The notes beneath the pieces are model-generated. The model was given only the letters and a program-made list of their open reading frames with translations. It ran no database searches and was not told the origin of the DNA. A program made the position numbers and the translations under genes. Positions 31,268 to 36,559 of a stretch of 64,000 bases of DNA are shown piece after piece. Every line of letters begins with the position of its first letter. The stretch's first letter is position 1. The DNA is from Lactobacillus gasseri ATCC 33323 = JCM 1131 (GTDB lineage: Bacteria; Bacillota; Bacilli; Lactobacillales; Lactobacillaceae), in NCBI RefSeq assembly GCF_000014425.1, contig NC_008530.1, positions 62,001 through 126,000 of the forward strand, written 5' to 3'.

Positions 31268-31289
31268 TTAAATTTACTGCATAAGATAA

Positions 31290-31321
31290 AGAGAGACGCT
31301 GGTTAGCGTCTCTCTTTTTTT
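31290..31321 (+). terminator. Strong terminator after the 46-residue protein gene
   Basis: AGAGAGACGCT pairs perfectly with AGCGTCTCTCT around GGTT, then seven T. Confidence 0.92.
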
Positions 31322-31440
31322 GCATGTAAAAGTTATATAAATTCTAATTTATTTAATAACATTTTGTTGTAAATGAATTTATATTATTATATAAAAAGCC
31401 TTATAAAATATGAAAAATTGAACATAGGATAGAATTTTAG

Positions 31441-32301
31441 ATGAATAACATTTCGAGAAAAGGGCTAGAAGTAAAGGCAGTTTTTGCCCTTGTTTTACCC
31501 TCTCTTTTTTTAGGACTAGCAAGTAACTTTTCCCGCAATATTTTTTTAGGAGTTATGCTGCTCTTAATTTTGGGAGCAGTCGTCGGCTTGAGCATACCAA
31601 CTATTGTTAGTACCTGGCTTATTTTGATTTTGACTGTACTAGGGATTAGCTCTCTAACTCTTGGATATGCGGCGATAGATTTTTATGGAAAGACCCTGCT
31701 GCTTATTTCTTTTCCCTTAGAAACATATTTAACTAGTCAAATTAAAGAGTGCGTTTTTAGATGGCAAATATTTAAGAAAAATCAGTCTAGTGCTTACCGT
31801 TATCTTAAGCACTACGATCAAAATGTAAAATTACAAACGACATATAATGCAGAGAAGTTATATAAAAAGATTAAGAGAATTTTAACGGAGAAAAATTATT
31901 TACCATTGTGGTGTGATTTTACGATTATTGATTGGGAACATGATCAGCAGTTTGCGCAATTTAATTTAGAAGATCATGACAAAATTTTGCAGCAAATAGC
32001 AAGAGTACTTAAAACAAGTAGATTAGTTGATGAAAATTTATATTACCTGGGAAATGGTCAGTTTCTAATTATCTCTAATACGATCGCACCAGGTACATTA
32101 ATGGTTTTAAATGATGAACTAAAAGCTGAGTTAAAAAGGCTACAGTATGGGGAATATCAGCCTGCTTTTAAAATGGCAACGCAGCACATTACAGAACAAG
32201 ATTTTCTTGAGTATCCTAATTTTAATGCAATTCTTAAACGTCTAAAAAGAAAGCTTGAAACGGACTTAGTTGTTGAATATTTAAAGGGAGTAGAAGCATG
32301 A
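31441..32301 (+). CDS. Membrane protein with degenerate GGDEF-like domain
   Basis: A 286-residue protein. Three or four membrane helices fill residues 12-95. After a coiled linker, residues 155-260 read like a diguanylate cyclase fold: FTIIDWEHDQQF for the usual D-DFK strand, HDKILQQIARVLKTSRLVDENLYYLGNGQFLII for the D-L-RYGGDEF hairpin. The active-site GGDEF is GNGQF (204-208), so cyclase activity is not expected, but RLVD at 194-197 resembles the RXXD c-di-GMP-binding I-site, with one residue more spacing than usual. The gene overlaps the next by four bases. I infer a regulatory or structural subunit of the polysaccharide synthase encoded downstream; the domain call needs a profile search. 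Confidence 0.7.
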   Translation: MNNISRKGLEVKAVFALVLPSLFLGLASNFSRNIFLGVMLLLILGAVVGLSIPTIVSTWLILILTVLGISSLTLGYAAIDFYGKTLLLISFPLETYLTSQIKECVFRWQIFKKNQSSAYRYLKHYDQNVKLQTTYNAEKLYKKIKRILTEKNYLPLWCDFTIIDWEHDQQFAQFNLEDHDKILQQIARVLKTSRLVDENLYYLGNGQFLIISNTIAPGTLMVLNDELKAELKRLQYGEYQPAFKMATQHITEQDFLEYPNFNAILKRLKRKLETDLVVEYLKGVEA

Positions 32302-32444
32302 GTAATTGGTTCTTTTTCTTGGTAATTTTGGTTACTTTAACATTTCTAGTGGCATTTTTTGCTATGTTTCGTAGCCTCTGGACTATTTATCATCAAACTG
32401 AGCATACAGTGCGTCATTTAGGAAGAAAGCATAATGTTAAATGA
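32298..32444 (+). CDS. 48-residue single-pass membrane peptide of the polysaccharide operon
   Basis: It starts at ATG 32298 inside the stop of the GGDEF-like gene (ATGA) and ends 11 bases into the GT2 gene. One hydrophobic helix (WFFFLVILVTLTFLVAFFAMF) is followed by a basic, His-rich tail (HLGRKHNVK). Overlaps on both sides indicate translational coupling and a role in the same complex, like the small accessory subunits of other processive synthases. No family recognised. Confidence 0.75.
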   Translation: MSNWFFFLVILVTLTFLVAFFAMFRSLWTIYHQTEHTVRHLGRKHNVK

Positions 32445-33741
32445 TTTTTTAGCTGTTTCAACTTTAGTTTCAATTTGGTTTTCGCTTTTAGCTTCGTTAG
32501 TTACTCTTTATGGTGCAACTCGTTTTTGGCTTAAGCATAGTAAAAAAGTCATTTCAATTACGCCACTAAAGCATTACCCCGCAATTACGATTGTTGTTCC
32601 AGCACATAATGAAGAAGTGGTAATTGCAAATACCACTAAGGGAATTCTTAACTTGAATTATCCTGCATCAAAGGTCGAGCTACTCTTATATGCCGATAAT
32701 TGCCAAGATAAAACTGCAGCTGAAATGCGTAAGACGGTAGATTTACCTCAATATAAATACAGAAATGTACAAATAATTGAACGGCGTGGCTCAGGCGGTA
32801 AAGCAGGTGTCTTAAACGATGCCTTAAAGATAGCGCAGGGAGAATATATTTGCGTTTATGATGCAGATGCATTGCCCGAGAAAAATGCTTTATATTTTTT
32901 AGTGAAAAAAGTTTTAGAGAATCCCCAACGATATATGGCAACTTTTGGCAGAAATAAAACACGGAATGCGAAGCAAAATTTTTTAACTAAATGCATTAAC
33001 CAAGAAGTTATAGTGTCTCAAAGACTTCAACATGTAGGTGTTTGGAATTTATTTAAAATTGGGCGAATTCCAGGAACCAATTTCATCATCAATACTGAAT
33101 ATGTAAAAAAGATTGGTGGTTGGCAAAGTGGCGCCTTGACTGAAGATACCGAAATTTCTTTTCGCATTATGGAAGATGGCTATTTGATTGCTCTAGCGTA
33201 TAATTCAGAGGCTTTTGAACAGGAACCTGAGCATTTACGTGATTATTATTATCAACGATTACGTTGGGCTAAAGGAAATTATCAAGTAGTGATGAATAAC
33301 TTTAAACACTTATTTGATACTAGTAACTGGCGTGTAAAGCTAGAGACTTTTTATTTAGCATGTACTTTCTTTTGGTTTAATTTAGCTGTTGTTCTTTCAG
33401 ACATTATCTTTTTTGTGGATTTGGGATGTATAATTACAAGATTTTTCAATCCAGAAATCCCAATTATCTTTGCAATGAATTCTAATATTCTCTTAATGCA
33501 GCTACTATTAATTAACTGGCTATTAATGATCTTGCTCTATGTAATTCAAATAAATCTCGCTTTAGCTACTCAATATGGTCAAGCAACTAGTGATCAAATC
33601 TGGCTAGCTTTAGTGTCATATTTTACTTATTCGCAACTCTTCATTGCTATTTCTCTGCAAGCAGTCTGCTCAGTAATTGGAGATAAGGTGTTTAAACGAG
33701 ATGGTACTAAGTGGGTGAAAACCAAAAGATTCGCAGATTAG
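32434..33741 (+). CDS. Processive family 2 glycosyltransferase, polysaccharide synthase
   Basis: A 435-residue membrane GT2. N-terminal helix at 5-30, nucleotide-binding VVPAHNEE at 54-61, metal motif DAD at 143-145, acceptor/base motif TED at 236-238, and QRLRW at 274-278, the signature of cellulose, chitin and poly-GlcNAc synthases. Three or four C-terminal helices (about 300-420) would form the export channel. It resembles PgaC/IcaA and the Listeria Pss synthase more than BcsA, since no PilZ domain is present. The downstream GH8 hydrolase points to a beta-linked glucan or amino-glucan. Product unknown. Confidence 0.88.
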   Translation: MLNDFLAVSTLVSIWFSLLASLVTLYGATRFWLKHSKKVISITPLKHYPAITIVVPAHNEEVVIANTTKGILNLNYPASKVELLLYADNCQDKTAAEMRKTVDLPQYKYRNVQIIERRGSGGKAGVLNDALKIAQGEYICVYDADALPEKNALYFLVKKVLENPQRYMATFGRNKTRNAKQNFLTKCINQEVIVSQRLQHVGVWNLFKIGRIPGTNFIINTEYVKKIGGWQSGALTEDTEISFRIMEDGYLIALAYNSEAFEQEPEHLRDYYYQRLRWAKGNYQVVMNNFKHLFDTSNWRVKLETFYLACTFFWFNLAVVLSDIIFFVDLGCIITRFFNPEIPIIFAMNSNILLMQLLLINWLLMILLYVIQINLALATQYGQATSDQIWLALVSYFTYSQLFIAISLQAVCSVIGDKVFKRDGTKWVKTKRFAD

Positions 33742-33750
33742 GAATAAGAG

Positions 33751-34869
33751 ATGAAAGTAAAGAATTTAATACTGATTTTAGGAACTATCATTGCTTATTT
33801 AGGAATCATCGCCTATGTGAGGATGAGCAATGATCGAACGCTAGAAGAGCGATGTTATCATTCGTGGCGTGAAGATTATATAAAAAATAAAAATCAAAAT
33901 GAGCAATATGTGAATGCAGCAGGAAGAAATAATCCTTCATTTGCCTTATCTGAAGCACAAGGTTATGGAATGTTACTGGCTGCTAAAGCGGGAGAGAAAC
34001 ATTTAGGAAGTCGGATTGATTTTCAAAAACTAGATAATTATTACCTGGCTCATCGCTTAACAAATTCAAATTTGATGAGCTGGAAACAGAAAGATAGAAA
34101 AAATATTTGGCGTGATAATCCTGTGAGTGCAAGTGATGGTGACATAATAATTGCGCAAGCTTTGCTGCATGCTGATAGAGTTTGGCCAGGACATGGTTAT
34201 AAGTCACAAGCTGTTAACTTAATTAATGATATTAAAAGGCTTGAAATCAATCAGAAAGCTAAAATGGTAACTGTCGGAAACTGGGCTAATAAAGATTCAC
34301 GCTTTTATAATGTACTGAGAACATCAGATGTAATGCCAAAAGCGTTTGAAGAATTTTATCAAGTAACTGGGGATCAAGCTTGGCTAACAATTAAAAGAAA
34401 AATGCTTAACTATTTGCAAAAGTTAAGCAAGAAGTACAATACTGGTTTAGTTCCTGATTTTGCCTGGATTTCTAATAATTATGTTAGGCCCGCACAAGCT
34501 AATGAAGTGGCGATTAATGATGATGGTCACTACAGTGCAAATGCTTGCCGAGTCCCAATGTTGTTAGCTGAAAGCAATGATAAAGAAGCAGCTCAAGTAG
34601 TAAAGAAGATGCTAAAATTTTTTAAGAAAAAAGGGACTTCAGCTGGTTTTACCTTAAAAGGTGAAAAATTACATCATTATCAATCAGCGAGCTTTAGTGC
34701 GCCAATCTTTGTAGCGGCTAGTAAGTATCGTAATCAGGGTTATGATACTTTGATTGAACAAGAAAAATATATCTTTTCAAGACCACTTCCGAAAGATAAC
34801 TATTACGATGCTACTTTAACGGTTTTAGCTGCTTTAAATACAAATGAGTTGACGGGATTAGAAAAATAG
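33751..34869 (+). CDS. Membrane-anchored glycoside hydrolase family 8 protein
   Basis: A 372-residue protein with an N-terminal signal anchor (LILILGTIIAYLGIIAYV) and a GH8 (alpha/alpha)6-barrel. The general acid is likely Glu68 in SEAQGYGMLLA; the family signature ASDGDIIIAQALLHADRVW supplies Asp129. GH8 enzymes cleave beta-1,4-glucan, chitosan or lichenan, and the BcsZ/PssZ members are encoded with synthases and trim or release the polymer. It starts nine bases after the GT2 gene and closes the operon, followed by a strong terminator. Confidence 0.9.
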   Translation: MKVKNLILILGTIIAYLGIIAYVRMSNDRTLEERCYHSWREDYIKNKNQNEQYVNAAGRNNPSFALSEAQGYGMLLAAKAGEKHLGSRIDFQKLDNYYLAHRLTNSNLMSWKQKDRKNIWRDNPVSASDGDIIIAQALLHADRVWPGHGYKSQAVNLINDIKRLEINQKAKMVTVGNWANKDSRFYNVLRTSDVMPKAFEEFYQVTGDQAWLTIKRKMLNYLQKLSKKYNTGLVPDFAWISNNYVRPAQANEVAINDDGHYSANACRVPMLLAESNDKEAAQVVKKMLKFFKKKGTSAGFTLKGEKLHHYQSASFSAPIFVAASKYRNQGYDTLIEQEKYIFSRPLPKDNYYDATLTVLAALNTNELTGLEK

Positions 34870-34905
34870 AGAAAGATTAAGTTGTTGAATCTTTCTCTAT
34901 TTTTG
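34862..34905 (+). terminator. Terminator of the GGDEF-like/GT2/GH8 operon
   Basis: AAATAGAGAAAGATT pairs with AATCTTTCTCTATTT, followed by T. The left arm covers the GH8 stop codon. Confidence 0.88.
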
Positions 34906-35629: not shown

Positions 35630-36559
35630 TTGAAATTTCAGTGCGCATCCTGTGGGTTGCGACTTGACAGCCTTCATTTTAAGCAAGAAGGATTAATGAA
35701 TCCCAAGTTAACAAGTATTTGTGATATTTGCCTAACACGCAATCTAAATGCAGAAGATTATGAAAATCCAGTAATTGAGAATATTTCCCAGGTAATGCTC
35801 TATGGCTTTGTAGGAAAGAAAAATACGGGTAAGCTTAATCTAGAGTCTTTAAATCAATATCTTGTAGGAAGCGATCATAGACGCCAATATGAATCTTTTA
35901 TTCAGGATTATGATGGTAATGAAGTAGCTCTCCAGCAATTGTCACGATCTGAATTTAATCAGGCAATTATTAAGAGCGAAGATAAAGAAATAAATTATAT
36001 TCCTAATAGCAATGTTGATTTTGCGGTTAATATGAAAAACATGGGAATTGAAGTTGACTTTTCTTTAAATGAAGTCGATTTTGTTGACCGTGAAAGAATT
36101 CGTCATAAATATAATTATCGCTGCCAATATTGCGGTAGACGCGGGACGAGCGTAGATCACAAAGATCCAGTTTCTTTATCGCATGATAATTCTTTTGATA
36201 ATCTGATTTTGTCATGTAGCGAGTGTAATCGAATTAAATCTAATATGCCTTATAATTTGTTTACTAAGCTGAATAATCAACTTACTGTTGTAAATAGAAA
36301 ATTGGTTAAGTACGAAGATACTCTTGCTAATTTAAAAGAAGAATTTCAGCAGGCAAAACGTGATTTGGCTGGACAAGTTCATTTAAAAGGGGTAGTTAAT
36401 GACCCTGAATTAAATGCGATGAGAAAGCAAAATAAAAAGCTTCAGGATGCAATTGATAGTTTGCAGAGCGATTATGATGCTTTAAGGAAATTGCGTAAGA
36501 CATATTTTGAAACTGGTTGGAAACTAGCACAAGAAAAAGAAAATAGTGAGATTATATAG
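35630..36559 (+). CDS. HNH endonuclease with zinc-finger N-terminus and coiled coil
   Basis: A 309-residue protein. The N-terminus has CASCGLRL and CDICL pairs, a likely zinc knuckle. An HNH domain lies at about 160-210 with CQYCGRRG, the DHKDP core and CSECNRIKSN, giving the two CXXC zinc pairs and the catalytic His. The C-terminal 100 residues form a coiled coil (VVNRKLVKYEDTLANLKEEF, MRKQNKKLQDAIDSL). TTG start at 35630, supported by GGGGGAAG upstream. Its role is unknown; it may be a DNA processing or defence nuclease. Cotranscription with a dNMP phosphohydrolase-like gene is suggestive. Confidence 0.85.
   Translation: MKFQCASCGLRLDSLHFKQEGLMNPKLTSICDICLTRNLNAEDYENPVIENISQVMLYGFVGKKNTGKLNLESLNQYLVGSDHRRQYESFIQDYDGNEVALQQLSRSEFNQAIIKSEDKEINYIPNSNVDFAVNMKNMGIEVDFSLNEVDFVDRERIRHKYNYRCQYCGRRGTSVDHKDPVSLSHDNSFDNLILSCSECNRIKSNMPYNLFTKLNNQLTVVNRKLVKYEDTLANLKEEFQQAKRDLAGQVHLKGVVNDPELNAMRKQNKKLQDAIDSLQSDYDALRKLRKTYFETGWKLAQEKENSEII

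Follow-up and report, generated by a model that had tools for sequence, protein, structure and literature searches.

What becomes of a receptor for cyclic di-GMP (c-di-GMP) once its signal is lost? The question is raised by a four-gene operon of Lactobacillus gasseri ATCC 33323, which lies in the 64,000-nucleotide stretch analysed here (contig NC_008530.1, positions 62,001 to 126,000; hereafter the window). The genes encode a membrane protein with a degenerate GGDEF domain (DGL), a small membrane peptide (PEP), a processive family 2 glycosyltransferase (GT2) and a family 8 glycoside hydrolase (GH8). A first-pass annotation had read this set as a complete, compact exopolysaccharide (EPS) synthase, and Pfam matches for GT2 and GH8, together with a gene order kept in relatives, bear it out. 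The operon is real, conserved across relatives and probably a polysaccharide synthase. The comparisons below suggest one fate of a c-di-GMP receptor after signal loss, namely retention next to its synthase with the binding residue missing. On balance, and with moderate confidence, we favour a synthase of the Pss/Yda kind in which the receptor subunit DGL has lost its c-di-GMP site and is kept as a structural or re-tuned activator, most likely the former, and whose polymer probably contains N-acetylmannosamine (ManNAc).

The samples comprised 301 Lactobacillaceae genomes, with 40 loci taken from 39 of them besides the present one, and a class-level draw of 299 genomes. Family f3 is inferred to be Streptococcaceae, and f9/f27 Paenibacillaceae. 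Papers are cited by PubMed Central (PMC) number.

A GGDEF fold without the I-site arginine

Profile and structure comparisons agree that DGL has the GGDEF fold, which rules out a chance resemblance and upholds the earlier proposal of a degenerate domain with GNGQF at the active site. The structure model consists of four N-terminal helices followed by this fold, and alignment with PssE-type proteins extends over 189 columns (hhalign probability 86.7, E 4.3e-6). The DGL of the window gives no match to Pfam PF00990 up to E 1, so the gathering cut-off is not reached; 13 of 35 DGL orthologs match at E ≤ 0.1, the best at 4.1e-11. Neither DGL nor PEP has a significant match in Pfam and NCBIfam. The DGL alignment (A1) holds 35 sequences, with L039, L042, L052, L061, L062 and L074 left out.

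The GG[D/E]EF signature of active diguanylate cyclases is absent from DGL, which has GNGQF. In the Bacillus subtilis receptor YdaK, the degenerate motif is preceded, at a distance of five residues, by an RxxD motif (R202, D205), and EPS is lost when either residue is changed to alanine (R202A, D205A; PMC5422440). In the places of this Arg and Asp, DGL has Leu195 and Glu198. The RLVD that had been placed near the I-site is close by, but it starts at residue 194, one residue early for the register, and the alignment does not support it as a usable I-site. It is also not kept among orthologs, which have RLPS, FTVD and others.

The arginine is absent from every Lactobacillales DGL examined. Among all DGLs of at least 240 residues it occurs in 0 of 39 from Lactobacillaceae, 0 of 7 from f3 and 0 of 1 from f4 (0 of 47 Lactobacillales), and in all 16 from f9/f27; 16 of 18 PssE-type relatives have it. 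An ETDxxxEY-like C-terminal tail is found in 60 of 63 DGLs. A quick GT2 tree, built from 62 of 84 GT2 sequences and carrying a long-branch warning, separates the 46 Lactobacillales rows, by a branch with SH-aLRT 99, from the PssC class and from the f9/f27 rows, whose own grouping has a support of only 69. A single loss of the I-site arginine near the base of the Lactobacillales would be the simplest account of these sequences, and a role for DGL as a c-di-GMP receptor in this order is not supported by the alignments.

Cyclases in genomes that carry the operon

The first-pass annotation had raised c-di-GMP, or another dinucleotide, as a possible signal; the search of the same genome does not support c-di-GMP as the likely one. 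PF00990 matches at one place only, in a protein that we take from its layout to be GdpP, presumably a c-di-AMP phosphodiesterase, so the cyclase that accompanies Pss and Yda systems was not found; EAL (PF00563) gave no match in the genome.

In the larger sample a cyclase was scored at PF00990 E ≤ 1e-15. Of the 149 genomes with any PF00990 match this cut-off excludes 13, whose hits are probably GdpP or degenerate proteins. Weak GGDEF matches are incomplete in one scan, which missed the GdpP of genome G000 that two others found. Strong matches are present in 18 of the 37 Lactobacillaceae carriers, compared with 53 of 55 genomes that have a PssC-class GT2 (Fisher 9.5e-8; this and the other counts take no account of genome kinship). 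The 55 were classed by GT2 similarity; 20 such loci were inspected, and L105, L123 and L124 show no PssE-type gene there. Neither the f4 genome nor any of the 12 f3 genomes searched has a PF00990 match; eight of these 13 are carriers. The f9/f27 carriers match in 16 of 16, with 12–21 matches per genome. In genus g1, strong matches are found in 2 of 25 carriers, a count from which G301 was left out (its match lies within a 997-residue frame with GGDEF and EAL matches) and in which the DGL match of G326 is partial. Because 10 of the 11 carrier genomes of g4, g16 and g38 encode a cyclase, yet all 11 of their DGLs lack the arginine, loss of the I-site seems to have preceded loss of the cyclase. 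As a separate observation, G301, G308, G309, G324 and G349 have 8–27 GGDEF and 5–13 EAL matches each, unlike the rest of the 75 g1 genomes, and are possibly mixed assemblies.

One rival reading is that DGL retains c-di-GMP binding, by way of the shifted RLVD or of some other face, and controls the synthase like PssE and YdaK, the signal coming from an unrecognised or imported source; we hold it improbable. Fold and layout do match PssE/YdaK, and several facts weigh against the loss we propose. RLVD retains an Arg and an Asp, one residue out of register, so that weak binding is possible; 2 of 18 PssE-type proteins likewise lack the I-site arginine; and the 18 of 37 carriers with a cyclase come close to the whole-sample rate (136 of 301), so that carriers are not depleted of cyclases. 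The cyclase contrast is strong only against the PssC class. On the other side stand the absence of the arginine from every Lactobacillales DGL counted, including the 11 from g4, g16 and g38, the failure of RLVD itself to persist across orthologs, and a genome in which neither a cyclase nor an EAL protein was found.

DGL might instead have switched to a new ligand (c-di-AMP, a guanosine nucleotide or a UDP-sugar, for example) and continue to gate the synthase in lactobacilli and probable streptococci. The GGDEF-like domain is under constraint, as judged from the ratio of non-synonymous to synonymous substitution (dN/dS), despite its I-site loss, and the putative c-di-AMP phosphodiesterase GdpP is present. 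No ligand site was identified in the domain, and we consider this reading unlikely.

The probable synthase, its hydrolase and the polymer

GT2 has the motifs first described for it: DAD lies at residues 143–145, TED at 236–238 and QRLRW at 274–278. Its model (predicted local distance difference test, pLDDT, 87.8; predicted template modelling score, pTM, 0.87) has fold matches to hyaluronan and cellulose synthases, and its best PDB-sequence matches are cellulose synthases. Two specific identities were rejected on NCBIfam equivalog cut-offs, namely cellulose synthase BcsA (87.9 of 699.1 bits, with no PilZ match) and the poly-N-acetylglucosamine synthase PgaC/IcaA (141.7 of 422.3 bits). Long helices of the model span residues 2–35, 299–336, 352–378 and 399–420. 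Since these presumably provide fewer membrane helices than hyaluronan synthase or BcsA possess, PEP and DGL may complete the channel.

The proposal of a GH8 hydrolase with a signal anchor also agrees with the results: GH8 scores 97.2 bits over a PF01270 cut-off of 24 (E 1.3e-27) and has an N-terminal hydrophobic stretch. Residues E68, D131, D193 and D236, which we take to be catalytic, are invariant in 16 sequences. Among solved structures, those related to GH8 are glucanases and chitosanases. Identity with BcsZ was rejected (64.5 of 299 bits, NCBIfam equivalog cut-off).

Lactobacillar GH8 proteins have been interpreted before. One of Lactobacillus johnsonii MT4 was proposed as a possible anti-Candida glucanase (PMC11481578), and one of Levilactobacillus brevis was named as a beta-glucan degrader (PMC8951740). 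One GH8 was found in genome G242, which we infer to be L. johnsonii ATCC 33200, and it is located in the four-gene operon; the MT4 gene is presumably the operon's GH8. The published reading of the MT4 enzyme as an anti-Candida glucanase may change, the GH8 of G242 being operon-borne.

Evidence on the polymer comes from a neighbouring gene. In 14 loci of relatives (7 of 40 in Lactobacillaceae, 7 of 7 in f3) a gene for UDP-N-acetylglucosamine (UDP-GlcNAc) 2-epimerase abuts the operon on one side or the other, which makes a ManNAc-containing polymer a reasonable guess. The epimerase is encoded in all 37 Lactobacillaceae carriers, against 185 of 264 other genomes. In genera g19 and g17, whose lists were assembled from genomes named in earlier results, the carrier is the sole genome with a strong epimerase match among 11 and 10 examined. 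From this linkage, ManNAc, formed from UDP-GlcNAc by the epimerase, is a probable constituent of the polymer. In L048, L049 and L051 the epimerase gene overlaps GH8. This arrangement suggests that the supply of sugar and the synthase are coupled at translation.

The ManNAc part of our reading has difficulties of its own. All PssC-class carriers (55 of 55) encode the epimerase as well; it is not adjacent in 33 of 40 Lactobacillaceae or 16 of 16 f9/f27 loci, and in the present genome it is unlinked to the operon. UDP-ManNAc is also used for wall teichoic acid, and the solved relatives of GH8 are no less compatible with a glucan or a polymer of glucosamine. Such a cellulose- or chitosan-like product, with the epimerase linkage reflecting other uses of UDP-ManNAc, is a substantial though minority possibility; it gains from the cellulose synthases among the GT2 matches, and loses by the 14 abutting loci and by the solitary epimerase-bearing carriers of g19 and g17.

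Proposed mechanism

The preferred reading, that of a Pss/Yda-like synthase with a receptor subunit turned structural, can be set out as follows. (i) GT2 would polymerise and extrude the chain, as its family and fold suggest. (ii) GH8, anchored outside, would trim the polymer. (iii) The membrane subunits DGL and PEP, made in step with GT2 by way of overlapping genes, most likely complete or activate the synthase. (iv) DGL is related to PssE/YdaK-type receptors, with fold and four-helix membrane part kept. The alignment shows the I-site arginine to be missing, so that control of the synthase by c-di-GMP through DGL has probably ceased. (v) It would most likely act as a fixed structural activator, docking through the conserved ETDxxxEY tail. 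(vi) Control of the synthase would then sit in transcription or sugar supply.

The groups form a series that can be tested with few proteins: f9/f27, with RxxD and 12–21 GGDEF matches; g4, g16 and g38, with no arginine but a cyclase in 10 of 11 genomes; and g1, mostly with neither.

Distribution, conservation and decay

DGL matches occur in 42 of the 301 Lactobacillaceae genomes, the present one included; two of these matches, in G191 and G083 (E 0.007–0.01), are not among the fetched loci. DGL, GT2 and GH8 follow in that order in 37 of 40 loci, five of the 37 having at least one split frame. Of the remaining three, L039 is a deletion remnant, L062 lies at a contig end and L074 contains none of the genes. 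A strain-specific oddity is ruled out by this recurrence across genomes and loci. Judged by DGL, the closest named relatives are an uncultured Lactobacillus (75%), L. johnsonii ATCC 33200 (73%) and L. taiwanensis DSM 21401 (62%). In genus g1, GH8 matches are found in 25 of 75 genomes, 24 of which have a DGL match too, and the single GH8 of the present genome is the operon's.

Outside the family, a GT2 of the same class (50–64% identity) occurs in 24 genomes of the class-level draw of 299 (7 f3, 1 f4, 16 f9/f27), with DGL beside it in all 24 loci. Each of the 7 f3 loci and the single f4 locus has a clear GH8; in f9/f27, 15 of 16 loci have a weak one (profile E 5e-10 to 4e-6). GT2 matches in G033, G114 and G163 (28–34% identity) were assigned to neither GT2 class, and one candidate scan of genomes scored at most five candidates per genome. 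PEP was recovered by profile at most operon loci (Table 1), and in 16 of the other 19 the gap holds a similar short hydrophobic open reading frame (ORF).

Some relatives have damaged copies. In the nearest, G124 (L035:10326-11451), the GH8 frame is broken early and DGL, PEP and GT2 are open. In L. taiwanensis DSM 21401 / G070 (L004, L039) the operon has collapsed, with a split DGL and with PEP and the beginning of GT2 running into the end of GH8. In G302, inferred to be L. acidophilus, DGL is interrupted. Such cases would fit an operon that is a decaying remnant of little present function in this group, a reading that we hold very improbable: in the window none of the four frames is broken, and dN/dS against three relatives is 0.09–0.13 for DGL, 0.11–0.26 for PEP and 0.03–0.07 for GT2, with 0.12 for GH8 against two of them, giving a range of 0.03–0.26 over the four genes. 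Two operon copies are present in each of G307 (L165, L166) and G251 (L049, L050), and GT2 is split in one copy of each.

Gene layout

The four genes are as compact as first described, on the + strand and at the coordinates of Table 1. DGL and PEP overlap by 4 bp (ATGA) and PEP and GT2 by 11 bp; GT2 and GH8 are separated by 9 bp. Pfam identifies an Fe-S_biosyn gene upstream of the operon and a YfbR-like gene downstream. No promoter is claimed, as a sigma-70 scan gave 24 sites against 23.5 in shuffled sequence. Two genes downstream of the operon (window 35630-36559) lies a gene for an HNH protein of 309 residues with weak similarity to the HNH region of IscB (38.5 of 175 bits); a homolog occupies the same place in the johnsonii and taiwanensis loci.

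Table 1. Features of the operon and its flanks, in window coordinates.
Feature	Position	Strand	Basis
DGL, 286-residue membrane protein, degenerate GGDEF fold	31441..32301	+	ORF list
PEP, 48-residue membrane peptide	32298..32444	+	ORF; profile match in 49/68 operon loci; dN/dS 0.11-0.26
GT2, 435-residue processive glycosyltransferase	32434..33741	+	PF13641 1.6e-23; model; fold matches
GH8, 372-residue glycoside hydrolase, N-terminal anchor	33751..34869	+	PF01270 1.3e-27; acidic residues
Terminator-like hairpin upstream of operon	31288..31317	+	13-bp stem then T run; fold z -6.0 (31283-31325)
Terminator-like hairpin downstream of operon	34862..34904	+	fold z -5.0
Four N-terminal DGL helices, residues 3-124	31447..31812	+	secondary structure of model
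RLVDE at DGL residues 194-198, near the I-site, in shifted register	32020..32034	+	alignment; Leu195, Glu198 at Arg, Asp positions
DGL residues 204-208, GNGQF replacing GGDEF	32050..32064	+	sequence
DGL residues 273-280, ETDLVVEY, conserved C-terminal tail	32257..32280	+	pattern in 60/63 DGLs

Comparison with known systems

In the Escherichia coli cellulose system, BcsE, BcsF and BcsZ around BcsA offer a likely parallel, with a degenerate GGDEF protein, a tiny single-helix protein and a GH8 near a GT2. The difference is that BcsE is soluble and binds c-di-GMP, and BcsA has PilZ.

Among open-licence PMC texts no publication was recognised as describing the four-gene operon, and passages of PMC4051162 and PMC5439011 gave nothing on it. 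Related systems have been described. The PssA-E proteins of Listeria monocytogenes likewise combine a degenerate-GGDEF protein with a co-encoded GT2 for EPS, and the PssE domain binds c-di-GMP with a Kd of 0.79 uM (PMC4125290). They differ in having the BcsB-like PssD in the operon, a putative glycosidase gene in a separate operon and a host with cyclases (PMC4125290). For PssD (PF03170) no match was found in the operon genes or in either neighbour; the PssE-type operon of a relative (L110) matches at 5.4e-42. The likeness to Listeria Pss drawn in the first-pass annotation holds as a relation to Pss-type systems, given the PssE alignment, but its parallel with PssZ as a GH8 does not, PssZ being treated as GH126 in PMC7479077. 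The ydaJ-N operon of B. subtilis is alike in that YdaK has four membrane helices and a degenerate GGDEF domain, with putative glycosyltransferases alongside, for EPS; unlike DGL, YdaK needs its RxxD, and the EPS depends on the cyclase DgcK (PMC5422440).

The group was also thought to have no characterised counterpart. The gts operon of L. acidophilus (GtsA-GtsB-PdeB) is one, though with other regulatory subunits: it too places a GT2, a membrane partner and a degenerate protein of the c-di-GMP family in one operon, but there the receptor, PdeB, belongs to the degenerate EAL proteins and binds c-di-GMP (PMC6123363). Membership of the present operon in this type is ruled out, PF00563 having no match in its genome, and the GT2 of a gts-like locus (L135) is only distantly similar to the operon's (phmmer 4.5e-28). 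G302 holds both this gts-like operon and a copy of the present one (L164), in which DGL is split in two frames beside open PEP, GT2 and GH8. A second PgaC-like protein, LA14_RS00530, appears in Table 2 of PMC6123363 and may be the GT2 of the present operon.

The streptococcal PelD described in PMC7112168 comes to the same outcome by another route. Streptococci typically lack diguanylate cyclase or phosphodiesterase enzymes, and their PelD is an EPS-synthase partner without c-di-GMP recognition; there the GGDEF domain itself is missing, whereas DGL keeps the fold and loses the I-site arginine.

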